From the NCBI RefSeq assembly GCF_019654955.1, contig NZ_BPEV01000007.1, forward strand, positions 1 through 64,000: a DNA stretch of 64,000 bases, written 5' to 3'. Position 1 is the first letter of the stretch, and each line of letters begins with the position of its first letter. Both the position numbers and the translations under genes were made by a program. The stretch is from Shewanella sp. KT0246. Its GTDB lineage: Bacteria; Pseudomonadota; Gammaproteobacteria; Enterobacterales; Shewanellaceae. This document shows positions 1,125 through 8,547 of this stretch, piece after piece. The notes beneath the pieces are model-generated. The model was not told the origin of the DNA. It ran no database searches and worked only from the letters and a program-made list of their open reading frames with translations.

Positions 1125-4100
1125 TTAGTTCGGCAAAATATCCGCTGCAGCCCCACTTGTTGGGATCGGTTGTGCCTTTAAGGGTAAAATAGGCGTTTGA
1201 ATCATTTCATCTTTAAGGTAACTAATCGCTTTATTAAGCTGAGCATCCACACCGTTAAACGTGGCATGAGGTAAGTTATCAATCTCAATATCAGGTGTTA
1301 CGCCAAAACCTTCGATAATCCAACGGCCATCCATTGCATACTGAGGAAATTCAGCCACCCGTGCCATCCCTTTATCGGTGAGGCGGTTTCGACCTGTTAA
1401 CCACACTCCTGCACCCGCAGTTTGCTTACCAATAACTGGCGCAATTCCAAGTGCTTTTATGCCTGCAGAAAAGGTTTCGCCATCTGAATATGTCATTTGG
1501 TCGGCTAACACCACTAAGTGACCTCTAAAGGTTTGCTGCATATTGGCATTGGCTGAGCCAGTTGTTGGTTGCCAAAATGCCCAAGCGCGGCGCAGTAGCT
1601 TTTCAATAATCCAGCTATCAATATTACCACCTCGGTTACGGCGAACATCAATGATCAAACCCGCTTTGTCATAATTGGTATAGAACTCACGTGCAAAGCT
1701 TTCTATATCGCCAGAACCCATTGCATACAGGTGTAAGTAACCCATTTCTCCGTTGCTGGCCTCAGCAACTTTATTGGCATTATTATTCACCCAGTCTAAA
1801 TAACGTAATTTGGCATCCGTTGCGTTTTCGTGCGGAACCACAATCGTGCTATGACTGTTTTTGCCACGTTTGATATCAAGTAACACCTGCTTTTTAGCTT
1901 GATTTCTAAGACCTTGAGTCACTTCTGCAATATTTGTCACCGGCTTGCCGTTAATGGCTAGAATAATATCGCCTACCTTTGCATCCACTTCAATCCGCGC
2001 TAATGGCGACGCTTGACTTGGAAGTTCTGGATCGTTTTGATAAATATGACTAATCACAATCCCTTTTGAAGTTTGTGATAACCTAGCGCCTAAACTTGCC
2101 CCAGCAGCAGTGTCATTTTTAGCAATATCGCCTCCTCTAACCTGCGAATGGAGCGCATCTAGCTCACCCATCATTTGCTTGAATATGTCATTCAGTTCAT
2201 TTCTATCAGTCAGCCTTGCGAGTAAAGGCTGGTACTTTTTCTTAATTTCAGCCCAGTTCTTACCCCGCATATTTTTGTCGTAAAATGAATCACGATGCAT
2301 TAACCAGGCATCTTCAAATATCTGTTGCCACTCTTGCATTGGCGAAATCGCTAATTGCCATTGTGCGGTATCGACTTTGGTATTTTTAAGCTCCGCTGGC
2401 AGTTTATCGCCAACTGCAACAATATGAAGTTCGCTAGGATTTGACTGTTTAGTAATGAGTAGTTTTTCGCCATCTGCTGACACCTTGTAAGCAGCTATAT
2501 CAGCGCCAAACTCGTTCAACTCAGGAGATAAATGATCAAACTTAACCAATTTCAAACTGGTTTTATTGGCCTGAGTATCCAGTAAATAGAATTTATCTTT
2601 TAGCACGGTTAATTGATCATAATTACCTGATGCAATTGGAACTTGCCAAAGTCTCTGATTAATCCCTTGCCAATCAATTCTAATTTTTTTAGTGGCAAAA
2701 TCTGTGTCATCAGATTGTTCAGCCAATTGACTTACATTAAGCTCTGTTGGTTTCACAAATGGAAAAACCGCTTTTTCCTTAAGCGCAATAGCAAAAACTT
2801 GAGTCCTTTTATCGAATATCGGCCCCATATTTCTGTCTCCCCAAGGAGAACCTGGCGTGGCATCAAAATGACGATTTGATAAAAAATACAGCCATTGGCC
2901 ATCAGGGCTAAAGCTTGGTGAGAAAGATTCATACTTGTCACTGGTGAGGGATTTTGACTTCTCTTCTGACAAAGAATACAGCACGATTTGCGGGCGCTGC
3001 TTACCGACCTCAGCTTTAGTGACTGCGATGAATTGACTGTTAGCAGACCAGACGATATTAGGGTATTCGCCAAGTCCTTCACCATTAGTGATAATCTTTT
3101 GGTTTTTGCCTTTCTTTAAATCTAATAGCCACACATTGCCATCATAATCATCATGGGCGATATAACGCCCATCAGGAGATAAATGTAAGCTGGTGCGTAA
3201 ACTAGTGCCATCTTTGGTTAATTGTTTAGCCCCTTCGGTTCCATCGGCTGGAAACTGCCATATTTCTTGATGGCCAGAAGCATCACTGATGCCATATACC
3301 CATTTTTCATCAATGCTTAAAATACCATCTCGGATACGCGACTCTGCAGGACTTTGGATCTGGACTAAACGTCGACCATCATGGCTTGCTATCGCCACAT
3401 GGCTTCGAGCTGTAATGACCGCCTTGTCACCTGTAGCAGCAAACTCTACTGACGTTGCGTATTCCATTGGGTCGTTAACCCAGTGTTCACGTCGATGAGG
3501 GAAATCAGATGTCAGATTAATATCGAGAGTTGACGAATCAGCCGCTGCAATATCAAACACTTTTAAATCTGCGCCATGCTGAAAAATAACGCGGCCTTGA
3601 TTTAACGTCGCATCGCGAACTTGCCACTCGTCAAACTGGGTGTGTTGCTTGATGTCAGTCCCATTAAGTTGCATCGACCAAATATTATCATTACCTGATT
3701 GGTCACTGACAAAGTACAACCTATCTTGCCAAAGCATGGGCTGTCTTACTGAACCTTCGTGAGATGTCGTTAACTTTTGCGCTTCATTATTACTACCAAG
3801 TTCAAAACGCCAAATTTCACCTAAAGCGCCACCGCGATAAACCTTGGCGTTATCGCCACTGGCTTGCAGACCAAATTGGGTAAAATAGACATATCTACCT
3901 TGCTCATCAATCGTGCCTTCGATGGCATCAGCTAAGGGTAAATTGGTGATGACTAACGAGGTTGGGTTTACGGTTTTAAGCACCCAGTAGTTTGCAGGGC
4001 CATGGGCATTGTCGGTTGAATAAAGGACTTCACCTGATGCCGTCCAACCTTGAAGACGGACTCGACTATTTTCAAAACTTACCCGTTTGGCAACGCCACC

Positions 4101-4400
4101 GTCTATTGGCATAACATAAACTTCTGTCGCGCCTTCGTAATTAGCAGTATACGCTATCCATTGACCATCTTTAGATATCGCAGCATCTAACTCTTCCGCC
4201 GCTTGTGTGGTAATACGCTTGGCATTGGTTTGATTTAACTGGCTGGCCCATAGGTCACCTTCGGCAGTAAATACCACAGTTTGATCATGTAATGCAGGCG
4301 CGCGGTAATAACCTTGATTATCGATATTCTGCGCAAAAGCTGATGTACTACTCAAGCCTAATGCCAATAAACAAGCAGTAACAGAGTGACGAAGTTTCAT
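1125..4400 (-). CDS. Exported tricorn-like S41 peptidase with beta-propeller and PDZ domains
   Basis: Predicted 1091-residue exported protease. From the ATG at 4400 it reads: signal peptide 1-24 (ends SAFA/Q); TolB/WD40-like propeller blades over about 30-650, with SPDGRYIA and SPSFSPDGQWLYFLS repeats; a tricorn core helical region at about 690-760 containing LHSQV (His751); a PDZ domain at about 765-850; and an S41 catalytic domain at about 885-1045 with VRRNRGGN and a TYSDGE segment, whose Ser972 is the likely nucleophile. This order matches archaeal tricorn protease. The frame opens 12 codons earlier at a TTG, but the ATG gives a normal signal peptide and has AAGGA about 11 bases upstream. 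It probably degrades peptides or misfolded proteins in the periplasm. It is transcribed alone, with terminators on both sides. Confidence 0.88.
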   Translation of the reverse strand: MKLRHSVTACLLALGLSSTSAFAQNIDNQGYYRAPALHDQTVVFTAEGDLWASQLNQTNAKRITTQAAEELDAAISKDGQWIAYTANYEGATEVYVMPIDGGVAKRVSFENSRVRLQGWTASGEVLYSTDNAHGPANYWVLKTVNPTSLVITNLPLADAIEGTIDEQGRYVYFTQFGLQASGDNAKVYRGGALGEIWRFELGSNNEAQKLTTSHEGSVRQPMLWQDRLYFVSDQSGNDNIWSMQLNGTDIKQHTQFDEWQVRDATLNQGRVIFQHGADLKVFDIAAADSSTLDINLTSDFPHRREHWVNDPMEYATSVEFAATGDKAVITARSHVAIASHDGRRLVQIQSPAESRIRDGILSIDEKWVYGISDASGHQEIWQFPADGTEGAKQLTKDGTSLRTSLHLSPDGRYIAHDDYDGNVWLLDLKKGKNQKIITNGEGLGEYPNIVWSANSQFIAVTKAEVGKQRPQIVLYSLSEEKSKSLTSDKYESFSPSFSPDGQWLYFLSNRHFDATPGSPWGDRNMGPIFDKRTQVFAIALKEKAVFPFVKPTELNVSQLAEQSDDTDFATKKIRIDWQGINQRLWQVPIASGNYDQLTVLKDKFYLLDTQANKTSLKLVKFDHLSPELNEFGADIAAYKVSADGEKLLITKQSNPSELHIVAVGDKLPAELKNTKVDTAQWQLAISPMQEWQQIFEDAWLMHRDSFYDKNMRGKNWAEIKKKYQPLLARLTDRNELNDIFKQMMGELDALHSQVRGGDIAKNDTAAGASLGARLSQTSKGIVISHIYQNDPELPSQASPLARIEVDAKVGDIILAINGKPVTNIAEVTQGLRNQAKKQVLLDIKRGKNSHSTIVVPHENATDAKLRYLDWVNNNANKVAEASNGEMGYLHLYAMGSGDIESFAREFYTNYDKAGLIIDVRRNRGGNIDSWIIEKLLRRAWAFWQPTTGSANANMQQTFRGHLVVLADQMTYSDGETFSAGIKALGIAPVIGKQTAGAGVWLTGRNRLTDKGMARVAEFPQYAMDGRWIIEGFGVTPDIEIDNLPHATFNGVDAQLNKAISYLKDEMIQTPILPLKAQPIPTSGAAADILPN

Positions 4401-4537
4401 AGCCAGAAAAGTCCTTGTAAATATTATTATTTTCAAGGACTCAAATTAGCAAATTAATTGCAACTTAGCAGTATCAATTGCTCTTTAAAGGCCAATTTAA
4501 TGACAAGAAATTGTAACTAAATGAGCGTTAGAATACC

Positions 4538-4565
4538 TAAAAGCCCTTTCTCTATAAAAAGGGCT
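4538..4565 (-). terminator. Intrinsic terminator after the anti-sigma gene
   Basis: Hairpin AGCCCTTT (4542-4549) with AAAGGGCT (4558-4565), followed on the minus strand by TTTT. It separates the sigma/anti-sigma operon from the S41 protease gene. Confidence 0.65.
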
Positions 4566-4609: not shown

Positions 4610-5542
4610 TTACTGAGTGGTTAATAGCTGCTTTAACTCAGCATATTGTTTATGTTGTGGGTGCGTTGGATTAACAATATCAGGAAAACGCTGCTCGATA
4701 GTGAGCATATAGCGCTCTGCCTCTACATAGTCTTTGTTTTTTACCAATTCATTAAGCCTACCTATCGCCTTAGTTGCTGAGTCATTTTGCATAACTGGGG
4801 CTGTCAAAGACTGTTGTTCTTTCGATGCAAACTCTTCAATAACTTGTAATTCGGCTTGGTTCATTTCAATACCAGCACGCTCGTTATTAATCGCATTATC
4901 GTTAGGTATTTGCATATCAAATGCTTGTACTTTTGCCTGAGTTTGATCTTTAGTTTGTGCTTGTGAAGCAAGTTGTTGAGCCGATTTAGGTTGGGTACTG
5001 TTAGTGAGCGTTTGCTCCTGCTTAATAACGTCAACTGTGTTGCTTGGCTCATTAGTAGATTGATTACTACTCTGAATACTTGGTTGAATATCTAGCTGTG
5101 CACTTGACTGAGTGCTTGGCTGTTCATTAGAAAGCGGCCCACTGCGCATCATTGCAGGTGTTGGGGTAGGTACAGCAGTGTCTGCCATGACTGGCACACT
5201 ATCATCAAGTTCAGTTTTAGCATGTTGGCTAAAATCAGGGTTAAGTAACATAACAGATACGATTAGCATCACAGACGCTGCGCTTGATAAAGGTAAGCGA
5301 TGCTTTTTCCAAAAGCTTATGGGCACAACATTGGTATGTAATTGCTCGGTTTTATCCCCGCCAGCACCTTTAACGGCTTTGGCTTGCAATAAAATCGCCG
5401 CATCTATCGCAGCTGATGGTCTTTCAAGATCTTGCTGCTGATATAAAGCTTTAATGTCTTGTTGCAATGCATTAAATGCTTCGTCGGTCATGTTGACAGC
5501 ATCTGTTTGCGCCCCAGACTGAGGCTTATCATTATCACTCAT
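4610..5542 (-). CDS. Probable membrane-bound anti-sigma factor
   Basis: A 310-residue protein encoded directly after an ECF sigma gene, with an 8-base overlap. An AAGGGG ribosome site lies just upstream of its ATG, so translation is probably coupled. Residues 1-70 form an acidic cytoplasmic region (DEAFNALQQDIKALY). A membrane helix follows at about 83-101 (SSAASVMLIVSVMLL). Next is a long Gln/Ser/Thr-rich periplasmic linker, then a helical C-terminus (about 255-310, RLNELVKNKDYVEAERYM). I see no HxxxCxxC zinc motif of the common ZAS anti-sigma domain. The call therefore rests on gene position, topology and the coupled start. It probably holds the sigma factor at the inner membrane until an envelope signal arrives. 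Confidence 0.7.
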   Translation of the reverse strand: MSDNDKPQSGAQTDAVNMTDEAFNALQQDIKALYQQQDLERPSAAIDAAILLQAKAVKGAGGDKTEQLHTNVVPISFWKKHRLPLSSAASVMLIVSVMLLNPDFSQHAKTELDDSVPVMADTAVPTPTPAMMRSGPLSNEQPSTQSSAQLDIQPSIQSSNQSTNEPSNTVDVIKQEQTLTNSTQPKSAQQLASQAQTKDQTQAKVQAFDMQIPNDNAINNERAGIEMNQAELQVIEEFASKEQQSLTAPVMQNDSATKAIGRLNELVKNKDYVEAERYMLTIEQRFPDIVNPTHPQHKQYAELKQLLTTQ

Positions 5543-6161
5543 GAGTCACCCCTTGCCATTTGGTTGCAACACATTGCTTAATGCTTTGATAAGCATAACG
5601 AATACGGCTTTTTGTGGCTTCTAATGTCACATCAGCAATATCACTGATGGCAGCAGCTGTAAGTCCTAATTCAATATTGAGTAGAAAAGCTTCTTTTTGC
5701 ACTGCAGGCAAATTGGCAATACATGATTTAAGTAACTTGGCTTTTTGCACATCTTCGAGTTGTTCATCTGGGCGACCGTGTGCGTGTTCATTTGTGATAT
5801 TGGCATCAAAATTATCCATACCCTCATCTCCCAACTCTTCGACTTTATCTAAAGGCTTTACAGCTCTAACATGGTCTATGAGTAGGTTATGGGCGATGCG
5901 ATATAACCAAGTGGTGAATTTGGCTGTCACTTGATAATTGCCAGCAGCGTTAATCACTTTGCCCCATGTATCTTGATATAAGTCTTCAGCAAGCGGATGA
6001 TTACTTAATTGGCGCACAAAATAGCGATACAAGGGACCTTTATGTTTGCTGTATAACAACTCAAAAGCACTTGTATCACCTTGTTGATAGTTCAACATTA
6101 ATTGCTCATCTGACATGCTTGAAGCTGTCATCGCATTGTTACTTAACTCTGTCTCAGTCAC
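5535..6161 (-). CDS. ECF-type RNA polymerase sigma factor
   Basis: A 208-residue extracytoplasmic-function sigma factor. Region 2 spans about residues 20-105 (AFELLYSKHKGPLYRY, AEDLYQDTW, FTTWLYRIAHNLLIDH). An acidic linker follows, then region 4 at about 145-200 (LPAVQKEAFLL through a helix-turn-helix ending LEATKSRIRYAYQSIK). The start is a GTG at 6161, chosen because AAGG lies 8 bases upstream; an ATG ten codons later lacks a ribosome site. The anti-sigma gene overlaps its end and a YfbK-like secreted-protein gene lies 84 bases upstream on the same strand. All three probably form one operon. The target promoters are not visible here. Confidence 0.9.
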   Translation of the reverse strand: MTETELSNNAMTASSMSDEQLMLNYQQGDTSAFELLYSKHKGPLYRYFVRQLSNHPLAEDLYQDTWGKVINAAGNYQVTAKFTTWLYRIAHNLLIDHVRAVKPLDKVEELGDEGMDNFDANITNEHAHGRPDEQLEDVQKAKLLKSCIANLPAVQKEAFLLNIELGLTAAAISDIADVTLEATKSRIRYAYQSIKQCVATKWQGVTHE

Positions 6162-6245
6162 TCAGGCTACCTTGGGTTAAACACTCGTTTATGTGCTGTT
6201 TTAATTGCATTAAACCAGTGTGCCCAGCGCAGGTGTTATTGTCTA

Positions 6246-7514
6246 CTAAATATGTTTATTTACCGGTTTAGGTTGAGGAATTGGCACAACAGGTACGATT
6301 AATTGCTGTTTACCTTCAGGAAGTTGGCCAATCGGTTTGGTTTTTATTGGCTGCGGCATTGGATAAGGCTCTTGCTTGTGCACTGGTGTTCCAGTTCTTT
6401 GACCTGAAGCATCATTTGCTTTAGTTGCTGCAATAACTGCCGCTGATTTAGCCAGTGCAATAAATTCTGAACGCATCGCGTCAAGGCTCCCTTCGGTTGC
6501 TTCGATGGCAATCTCAATTAATTTGTTGTAATTAAAGTCATGGACATAATTATTCTGATTAATCAGTTGTCCCAAACCTGCAACAGCGGCTGCGAACTTA
6601 AAATCATCACTCGATTGCTCAAAAAACTTTTGTTGCTGACCTATATCAATCGGATATTGATAAATAAATTGCTGTTCTGAGCTTGAACGCCCATCAGATA
6701 ACGAAATAACTGCAAGATCTTTGGCACTGTATCTGGCATGTATTGAGTTGTTGGCTGGCTGAACGTTTTTAGTTGTTGCATATTCAGCTTTTTCATTAAA
6801 TCTGAGCTCATATAAAGCAATATATTGACGCGAATTACCGACAGTGACTTGTCTTTTACGTGACGAAGTTTGATAAGCATTTTCAAACCCAATTAAGCGG
6901 TACTCTGACACCAATCGTGGGTTAAACTTAACTTTAGCTCGCAACCAATTAAAACCAAGTGCCGCTTTGTCACTTGCATCTTTTGTAAGCTCAACATTCA
7001 CTAACAGTATTTGAGTACCTTGATTGTAAGGTGATGGAGCAAGTTCTGTCGCAATGGCATAGTTAGTTGAAACCGCTGCAGTATTATAAAACTGATAATC
7101 AAAGCGATTGAGTAATTGATGGCTATTAATGCTATTACGTTGTGGTAAATCATCATGACTCACGGCTTGCTGCAACGCATTATAATCGGCTTGACTCGAT
7201 ACAAAGCTGAATTGCGAGACAGGCGTTTCTCCAGTCACCATATTCCCGCCATGACCACTGATGACAAGATCCCCTTGGTAATAACCAGGTTTTACCGGTG
7301 GATAAAGTGGTTTTTTCGGAAAAGACAATGGCTCAGGAGGAATGGCTTGCACACGTTTTGCTCCTTCAGTAGCAGGAACTGTTTGGGTTTCAAGTTGGCT
7401 TTGTTCAAAGGAGTCAATGTCTGCAGCGTTAACAAATGTGCAAGCCCCAATAACTAGGGTAAATAACCCGAGATAAAGTGGATGTTGAATTCCATTTTTA
7501 GTTTGCTTTGTCAT
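6246..7514 (-). CDS. YfbK-like secreted protein lacking the von Willebrand A domain
   Basis: A 422-residue exported protein. A signal sequence occupies residues 1-30 (ends FVNA/AD). Residues about 96-178 resemble the N-terminal part of E. coli YfbK (VSQFSF, LLNRFDYQF, ATELAPSPYN). Residues about 190-356 resemble its C-terminal DUF3520 part (VKFNPRLVSEYRLIGFEN, then FKFAAAVAGLGQ and RSEFIALA). The roughly 170-residue vWA domain that lies between these parts in YfbK is absent, including its DxSxS metal site; the join falls at about residues 178-190. A proline-rich tail ends the protein. The start is the ATG at 7514 with GAGG upstream; a TTG 12 codons earlier has no support. It lies immediately upstream of the ECF sigma gene, probably in the same operon, and may act in the envelope signal. 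Confidence 0.75.
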   Translation of the reverse strand: MTKQTKNGIQHPLYLGLFTLVIGACTFVNAADIDSFEQSQLETQTVPATEGAKRVQAIPPEPLSFPKKPLYPPVKPGYYQGDLVISGHGGNMVTGETPVSQFSFVSSQADYNALQQAVSHDDLPQRNSINSHQLLNRFDYQFYNTAAVSTNYAIATELAPSPYNQGTQILLVNVELTKDASDKAALGFNWLRAKVKFNPRLVSEYRLIGFENAYQTSSRKRQVTVGNSRQYIALYELRFNEKAEYATTKNVQPANNSIHARYSAKDLAVISLSDGRSSSEQQFIYQYPIDIGQQQKFFEQSSDDFKFAAAVAGLGQLINQNNYVHDFNYNKLIEIAIEATEGSLDAMRSEFIALAKSAAVIAATKANDASGQRTGTPVHKQEPYPMPQPIKTKPIGQLPEGKQQLIVPVVPIPQPKPVNKHI

Positions 7515-7698: not shown

Positions 7699-8547
7699 TT
7701 ATCTCAAGTTAAACAGTGTTTCTAACTCAGGTATTAAAATGGATTTTTCTGCTTCACCGAAGAAATCATCATGCATCCGAATAAACGCTTCTTGAAAGCT
7801 TTGTTGACTCATCACATGGTCTATTTCAGCAATAACTTTGTCACCTTTAGCTCCTTTTGAGCAAGCAATATAACCATAAATAGCCTGTTCAACATGACGA
7901 ATGGGAATTGAAACATAATCAAGAGTCTTGTCGTTGTCCCGCAAGTAAGCATCAACGACTTCGCTATATTCAATAATTCCTAAAACCCGTTGTGCATTTA
8001 ACATTTCAATGAGTTTGCTTGAAGAACTTACACCACCTCGGACATAAAACTCATGGGGATTTTTCGCGATTTGGTTGTCGATATATTCACCATAAGCCCT
8101 GTCTTTCACTACACCTATTTCTCCTTGGGTATTTTCAGGTAATTGGGCTAAATCCAACTGATTAGCAAAAATATGCTGGTTTTTAGTCAATACAATCAAA
8201 CGTAATGGTGGATAAATGCTGATGGGATAACGGGAAAAGGTCGCTACATCGAGTCGCGCAGGTGTTTTTATTTTATTGAACATGCAACTATTTTGTTGTT
8301 TAGACAATTCTAACCAACCACGGGTCATACTCACTTGCTGTTGCTCAAATGTCAGCTGATTATCGCTAAACTCCGTTAATAGCGAAATTGCTTCCATCTC
8401 CTCATTACCGGAAATAGACACAATATTTTCATCAACCTCAGTCAACATAACCGCACGCACTTCGGCATAAGCAGGTTGATTTAACAAAATAAAAATAATT
8501 GAAATGTAAAAAACTAGTCCCTTAGTCTTTAACCTTTGGAATGACAT
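7699..8547 (-). CDS. Periplasmic solute-binding-protein-like protein (SBP family 3 type)
   Basis: A 282-residue exported protein with an N-terminal signal peptide (cleavage near PAYA/EV, residue 28). The remainder has the feel of a family 3 extracellular solute-binding fold: PISIYPPLRLIVLTKNQ, a GEIGVVKDRAYGEYID hinge-like segment, and a C-terminal VIAEIDHVMSQQSFQEAF helix. No ABC permease or ATPase gene is adjacent, so it is probably a stand-alone sensor or binding protein like many in Shewanella; the ligand is unknown. The start is well supported by GGAGG six bases before the ATG. The gene is monocistronic and divergent from purE. Confidence 0.7.
   Translation of the reverse strand: MSFQRLKTKGLVFYISIIFILLNQPAYAEVRAVMLTEVDENIVSISGNEEMEAISLLTEFSDNQLTFEQQQVSMTRGWLELSKQQNSCMFNKIKTPARLDVATFSRYPISIYPPLRLIVLTKNQHIFANQLDLAQLPENTQGEIGVVKDRAYGEYIDNQIAKNPHEFYVRGGVSSSSKLIEMLNAQRVLGIIEYSEVVDAYLRDNDKTLDYVSIPIRHVEQAIYGYIACSKGAKGDKVIAEIDHVMSQQSFQEAFIRMHDDFFGEAEKSILIPELETLFNLR

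Follow-up and report, generated by a model that had tools for sequence, protein, structure and literature searches.

In the genome of Shewanella sp. KT0246, a gene of the YfbK family situated beside an ECF sigma factor gene encodes a protein without the von Willebrand A (vWA) domain. Is this absence an ancestral state, a recent loss or a sign of decay, and what could the remaining protein do beside a sigma factor? The window considered here is the whole stretch of 64,000 nucleotides carrying this gene. YfbK proteins are widespread, and the family is poorly understood: among the literature naming YfbK, judged by titles and listings, no paper is dedicated to its function, and no paper naming DUF3520 was found in the literature searched. 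Further, neither vWA-less YfbK proteins nor fusions of YfbK with anti-sigma factors are described in the titles and abstract openings among the matches listed, with subscription journals thinly covered.

The window gene encodes a vWA-less YfbK

The open reading frame is intact over its 422 codons and has no frameshift, as the preliminary description had stated. Both flanking families of YfbK are found by the Pfam scan, PF12450 with E 2e-9 (37.8 bits at a cut-off of 25) and PF12034 with E 3e-22 (80.1 bits, same cut-off), while no vWA family is listed at E <= 10. The same kind of scan finds PF12450, vWA and PF12034 in a vWA-bearing relative (L045). The gap between the flanking families is about 22 residues, as against the expected vWA domain of about 184. 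The preliminary description had recognised the two flanking regions correctly, but its borders (residues 96–178 and 190–356) shift to 92–170 and 193–359. Its short and clean join is borne out by the Shewanella alignment, where 15 residues stand in the place of 183–188 in 55 relatives. The window gene is a vWA-less derivative of YfbK and not a full member of the family (PF12450, vWA and PF12034, as in E. coli YfbK and the Shewanella lipoproteins): it shares with these both flanks, the core motifs and, with the Shewanella lipoproteins, the place beside an ECF sigma gene, but lacks the vWA domain with its metal site (MIDAS) and the D-x-D motif, and the lipobox is absent in its nearest relatives and doubtful in the window protein itself.

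The N terminus, judged by eye, resembles a signal peptide, in agreement with the preliminary description. The lipobox-like IGAC of the window protein fits the lipobox pattern, whereas the N termini of the nearest relatives do not. A cleavage-like VNA site is common to the four nearest sequences in a comparison of the N-terminal regions by eye. In the C-terminal tail, the YPMP motif is shared by seven of the eight vWA-less proteins of the main clade and also occurs in one vWA-bearing relative (L070).

The genome contains a single copy of PF12034. Relocation of the vWA domain to another gene was rejected, as no relative of the missing domain was found in this genome at E <= 1e-3; weak vWA matches (23–26 bits) occur in four of the nine vWA-less genomes searched, G078 being left out. 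A pseudogene was rejected for this gene in view of its open frame and low dN/dS.

Features of the yfbK locus in the window
Feature	Coordinates	Strand	Basis
vWA-less YfbK-like gene: signal peptide, scaffold and proline-rich tail, 422 aa	6246..7514	-	ORF and Pfam
Signal-peptide-like N terminus, residues 1-31	7422..7514	-	By eye and PROSITE-like pattern
PF12450, N-terminal half of the scaffold, residues 92-170	7005..7241	-	Pfam and model
V-S-S-Q, residues 105-108, where vWA-bearing relatives have D-x-D-T	7191..7202	-	Alignment
Join, residues 171-192, in place of the relatives' vWA; short helix 182-186 in the model	6939..7004	-	Pfam, alignment and model
PF12034, C-terminal half of the scaffold, residues 193-359: remaining beta-sandwich and helical bundle	6438..6938	-	Pfam and model
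Proline-rich tail with PYPMPQP	6249..6392	-	Sequence comparison
ECF sigma factor gene, presumed orthologue of S. oneidensis SO_3551	5535..6161	-	Pfam and paper
Putative single-pass anti-sigma gene overlapping the sigma gene, presumed orthologue of SO_3550	4610..5542	-	Position and paper
Palindromic terminator-like hairpin after the anti-sigma gene	4542..4565		Scan, reported on + strand only

The locus and its presumed counterpart in S. oneidensis

The yfbK gene is the first in a row, followed after an 84-bp gap by the ECF sigma gene and then by a gene overlapping the latter. A scan of the gap for terminator-like sites found none on the strand of the genes and one weak site on the other strand (6219–6231). 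The preliminary description was right in placing the gene beside a sigma switch. For the third gene, however, no Pfam family scores above its cut-off, and "anti-sigma" is kept here as a putative label in view of its place in the row, a single membrane segment recognised by eye and a published study of SO_3550, its presumed orthologue. According to that study (PMC8458880), SO_3550 is predicted to encode an anti-sigma factor and belongs to a presumptive operon together with SO_3551 (ECF) and SO_3552. A transposon insertion in SO_3550 restored aerobic growth of a cpdA mutant, inactivation of SO_3550 in the wild type left growth unaffected, and its function is called unclear in the same text. SO_3551 is counted among the ECF-like sigma factors in an excerpt of PMC4336711. 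We infer that the window locus corresponds to SO_3552-SO_3551-SO_3550, the likeness being that of a presumed orthologous locus and presumptive operon. The excerpt of PMC8458880 describes SO_3552 just as "another ORF"; judging from relatives known by name, Shewanella sp. ANA-3 among them, and not from the MR-1 sequence, it is probably a vWA-bearing YfbK.

The gene order purE-yfbK-sigma is seen in the loci of relatives, which supports orthology by gene place. The sigma gene adjoins yfbK in the window and in the 64 fetched loci, except L038, where the contig ends. The purE gene, the anti-sigma gene and a gene for an S41 protease lie near yfbK in many of these loci, not in all.

The absence of the vWA domain is a derived state

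The search with the yfbK family matched 65 of the 152 Shewanellaceae genomes at E <= 1e-5, and the loci read were that of the window and 64 fetched ones. In the alignment, 55 proteins have a vWA domain of 183–188 residues with the MIDAS motif, and nine, including the window protein, have 15–16 residues in its place. In L052, a frameshifted assembly, the best frame was not scorable, but another frame of that assembly carries a vWA domain (L134). A search with the alignment of vWA-less members raised the number of genomes to 66 of 152 by adding G078, whose copy (518 residues) is strongly diverged and also lacks the domain. Thus the domain is absent from ten of the 66 Shewanellaceae genomes with yfbK. 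In the order as a whole, PF12034 is present in 86 of 394 genomes; open frames shorter than 500 residues belong to four of the known vWA-less Shewanella genomes and to one contig fragment that carries MIDAS.

Since orthologues with vWA are found at this same locus, next to the ECF sigma gene, the absence of the domain in the window gene is a derived loss, and the preliminary view of a conserved scaffold that had lost its binding domain stands. The alternative that it had also considered, an ancestral domain-free form with vWA inserted later, could appeal to the clean join alone and is extremely improbable. We rejected it because vWA-less copies are nested among vWA-bearing ones: the latter stand at the locus of the window gene in both sister and outgroup species of Shewanella, and nearly all sampled relatives, within the order and in other phyla, have vWA. 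The domain was lost in the ancestor of eight sampled Shewanella species, and other lineages, within Shewanella and, separately, among a few distant bacteria, show it too. This is a clean, recurrent domain loss within a known family; the regulatory role discussed below is a proposed one.

Number of losses in Shewanella

In the tree of neighbour genes, the eight vWA-less species form one clade (UFBoot 100), S. gaetbuli (G053) is grouped with vWA-bearing species (UFBoot 98), and G078 is a separate branch (UFBoot 95 and 80 on either side). The FastTree version, with G078 left out, also separates S. gaetbuli from the main vWA-less clade. If the domain was never regained, the former tree would imply three losses in Shewanella. 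One loss with two re-insertions takes as many unweighted steps; we judged re-insertion at the same site, together with the motif and the lipobox, implausible.

The tree of the scaffold alone differs in that S. gaetbuli is grouped with the main vWA-less clade (0.993). Moreover, the neighbour-gene placement of S. gaetbuli fits the scaffold worse (AU p 0.041, KH and SH p 0.051). Both observations would agree with a single loss that passed between Shewanella lineages by horizontal transfer, which we consider unlikely and which is compatible with every functional reading given below. However, the join sequences of S. gaetbuli and the main clade differ, the neighbour genes put S. gaetbuli elsewhere, its scaffold has a mean identity of 0.41–0.45 to the vWA-bearing proteins versus 0.36–0.37 to the vWA-less clade, and the long branches invite an artefact. 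Because of the conflict between the two trees, a long-branch artefact and transfer are not surely separable for S. gaetbuli.

Predicted structure of the scaffold

In the AlphaFold2 model of the window protein, 187 of the 422 residues have pLDDT of at least 90, nearly all of them within the scaffold. In the model of the vWA-bearing protein of S. frigidimarina the elements follow one another as in the window protein, and the vWA domain (residues 231–414) is found where the latter has the helix 182–186. According to these models, the scaffold would be a beta-sandwich, normally split by the inserted vWA domain, followed by a helical bundle. Neither outcome that the preliminary description named as refuting it was obtained: the matches to both flanks are significant, and the elements are predicted in the order of the vWA-bearing form.

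The best alignment of the scaffold to a solved fold is that to ArnB (8s05_B), with Z 7.4 over 158 residues and rmsd 4.7; the next has 4.5, and a Z below 8 is not a proof. The aligned portions of ArnB are those surrounding its own vWA domain. Foldseek gave no match at E <= 0.001, and the sequence search of solved structures gave one chance-level match alone. Chains with beta-sandwiches at Z 3–4.5 (adaptin ears, PCuAC and others) were treated as generic. The architecture of ArnB and Sec23/24, consisting of vWA, beta-sandwich and helical domain, has been described, and the predicted E. coli YfbK is named among the proteins having it, in PMC12852372. The window protein may thus be akin to the core of ArnB/ArnE and Sec23/24, with its vWA-split beta-sandwich and helical bundle, the similarity being of modest score and with no sequence match; unlike them, it has no inserted vWA and is secreted.

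Motifs lost together with the vWA domain

For the D-x-D motif, 153 sequences were aligned and 147 classed, the six left out all having D-x-D and a MIDAS-like motif. Both aspartates are present in 125 of the 133 vWA-bearing sequences versus one of the 14 vWA-less ones (L183), although the rows are related and the counts are not independent events. The eight vWA-bearing exceptions comprise four rows with E-H-D, where the first aspartate alone is changed, one with H-V-S-D, and three that are cut short at the motif or ahead of it (L050, L144, L171). The co-lost residues likely work with the MIDAS metal site. The R-x-E-E pair is retained in 131 of the 133 rows that have vWA. Among the vWA-less rows, all five non-Shewanella ones keep it and none of the nine Shewanella ones does; thus its loss is not generally tied to that of the domain.

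The lipobox pattern is observed in 53 of 54 vWA-bearing Shewanella proteins versus one of ten vWA-less ones, the latter being the window protein. The pattern was a PROSITE-like one, applied with a hydrophobicity filter in place of a signal-peptide program, and L050 and L052 were left out.

A relative from the same order (L245, 1911–3512) retains a domain of vWA size in which the MIDAS letters are gone; the first aspartate of its D-x-D is changed as well, and it may be an intermediate. In four Planctomycetota loci (L208, L209, L210, L214), YfbK genes form tandem pairs, one copy having E-H-D instead of D-V-D or D-T-D.

The scaffold in other phyla

The collection scan yielded 336 confirmed relatives, and the best 80 of the 336 were examined. 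In 58 of the best 80 loci, yfbK is followed by an ECF sigma gene of the same orientation at gaps from -124 to 458 bp, and in four the sigma gene lies upstream of yfbK; in 18 of the 80 there is no same-strand ECF sigma gene within 4 kb. In the four upstream cases YfbK is extended at its N terminus by a stretch that contains a membrane segment and is, by eye, of anti-sigma type in three; two of the four proteins lack vWA (Candidatus Anammoxibacter and a Verrucomicrobia MAG).

Single proteins composed of an anti-sigma-like head, a membrane segment and the scaffold, with or without vWA, are found in Verrucomicrobiota, Planctomycetota and a myxococcal genome. They are anchored by their own membrane segment. 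The heads are called anti-sigma-like because of matches below the Pfam cut-offs in two of them (zf-HC2, E 0.04, in L140; RskA_N, E 0.029, in L161), their sequence judged by eye, and the adjoining sigma gene; the heads of L132 and L169 have no Pfam match. A fused query matched 53 of the 194 Verrucomicrobiota genomes, and in at least four (G514, G849, G883, G904) the scaffold halves are adjacent, with no vWA between them. Among 20 Verrucomicrobiota loci read, the sigma gene is upstream on the same strand in 16, and 17 carry vWA, the other three being new vWA-less cases. Of 20 Planctomycetota loci picked by hand, some of them incomplete at contig ends, seven have the sigma gene upstream. The head of the vWA-less L184 is very similar to that of its vWA-bearing relative L189, so L184 looks like a recent loss. 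One Verrucomicrobiota locus (L190, 170–2548 and 2555–4525) has tandem YfbK-type proteins with anti-sigma-like heads.

Selection and linkage to the sigma gene

The dN/dS of the two close vWA-less pairs is 0.20–0.21, higher than in all eight vWA-bearing pairs (0.04–0.15). Three more distant vWA-less pairs have 0.08–0.12 at dS > 1.8; the values for the window gene against its two nearest relatives are 0.12 and 0.08, with synonymous sites near saturation; overall, four of the 17 pairs are saturated. The vWA-less scaffold is under purifying selection, which is perhaps weaker than that on the vWA-bearing form.

The sigma gene was found in 113 of the 152 genomes at E <= 1e-30 and in all 66 with yfbK (65 of 65 before G078 was added), while 47 of the 113 have no detected yfbK. 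Thus the scaffold seems to need the switch, and not the reverse. The suggestion of the preliminary description that the protein is tuned to the sigma switch gains support from this co-occurrence and from the anti-sigma-like fusions in other phyla; the 47 genomes count against it. Among the vWA-less loci, the sigma gene follows yfbK in eight of nine, the ninth (L038) ending at the contig edge, and in G078. The latter was the one yfbK-bearing locus among 20 read from the sigma-only set. Most of these 20 Shewanella loci (L223–L242) lack yfbK but keep the sigma gene, often with the anti-sigma gene; many have a purE-like gene, distant and about 50% identical, beside the sigma gene. G025 (L244), a relative of the S. 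gaetbuli clade, has sigma and anti-sigma genes at the locus and no yfbK.

Possible role

We favour, with little more than even confidence, the reading that an ECF switch has YfbK as its outer sensing arm, that vWA serves this arm as a removable input, and that the window gene encodes a version reduced to the scaffold. YfbK proteins would form the extracytoplasmic arm of a sigma/anti-sigma switch: in Shewanella as lipoproteins encoded next to the sigma/anti-sigma pair, and in other phyla joined to an anti-sigma-like protein on its outer side. Where vWA is present, as is usual, its MIDAS would bind an envelope ligand, and the scaffold would relay its state to the anti-sigma factor. In the window form, where the vWA input and the coupled D-x-D are gone and the membrane anchor probably is too, the periplasmic scaffold might act on the anti-sigma tail alone, like RseB, which acts on RseA. 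The contact with the anti-sigma factor, the ligand sensing and the direction of regulation are what we infer here. Like RseB, the window protein is encoded together with an ECF sigma factor and a putative membrane anti-sigma factor, in a gene row comparable to that of the RpoE-RseA-RseB systems, and is secreted; it is, however, a different protein from RseB, and its control of the switch is a proposal.

The sensing-arm reading draws on both scaffold families persisting when vWA is gone, vWA-bearing orthologues at the same locus, the matching order of predicted elements, the dN/dS of the close vWA-less pairs, the constant company of the sigma gene, downstream in most of the best 80 loci, the anti-sigma-like fusions, and the co-loss of D-x-D and, in Shewanella, of the lipobox. 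Against it are the heads with sub-threshold or no Pfam matches, the sigma-bearing genomes with no detected yfbK, the 18 loci lacking a same-strand sigma gene, the dN/dS of the two close pairs exceeding all vWA-bearing ones, which slow decay would also fit, the lipobox fit of the window protein's own N terminus, and the absence of a growth phenotype in wild-type S. oneidensis upon SO_3550 inactivation, as given in the excerpt of PMC8458880. A narrower proposal is put forward tentatively, as possible and short of probable: vWA would be a removable ligand-input cassette in a split scaffold of Sec23/ArnB type, and this scaffold would make up the outer half of signalling through ECF anti-sigma factors; it could carry the signal by itself, and D-x-D, which would be there to engage the MIDAS of vWA, would decay after excision of the cassette.

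There is a smaller, still appreciable chance that the gene is decaying: with its vWA input no longer of use, the YfbK arm as a whole would be disappearing, and the vWA-less copies would be a half-way stage with little function. The many sigma-bearing genomes with no detected yfbK would fit this, as would G025, which keeps both sigma and anti-sigma genes, the raised dN/dS in the two close pairs and the strong divergence of the G078 copy. However, dN/dS in these pairs is still about 0.2, the frames are open in all ten vWA-less copies, which keep the core motifs, and the form persists through an eight-species clade. It is more doubtful still that the scaffold took up another periplasmic task, unrelated to the switch, with its adjacency to the sigma gene merely inherited. 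The changed localisation signal, the proline-rich tail, and the loss of D-x-D and, in all nine Shewanella copies examined, of R-x-E-E could be read in this way, but the sigma gene still follows yfbK in the vWA-less loci, and similar scaffolds are covalently part of anti-sigma-like proteins elsewhere.

The fusions and the co-occurrence with one ECF sigma gene give a poorly understood family a concrete role that can be tested. The rest of the predicted fold being intact and under selection suggests that vWA is a removable input part, and its repeated loss from a split fold provides natural deletion mutants.

Other genes of the locus

Upstream of yfbK, the gene at 7699–8547 (minus strand) encodes, by eye, a secreted solute-binding-like protein with no Pfam match. 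One or two relatives of it are present in the loci of several other species, with two in S. gaetbuli and some of its kin. The gene at 1125–4436 (minus strand) encodes a large secreted protease, which we take to be of the S41/tricorn-like family. It follows the anti-sigma gene in many, not all, relatives and may be a protease of the pathway.
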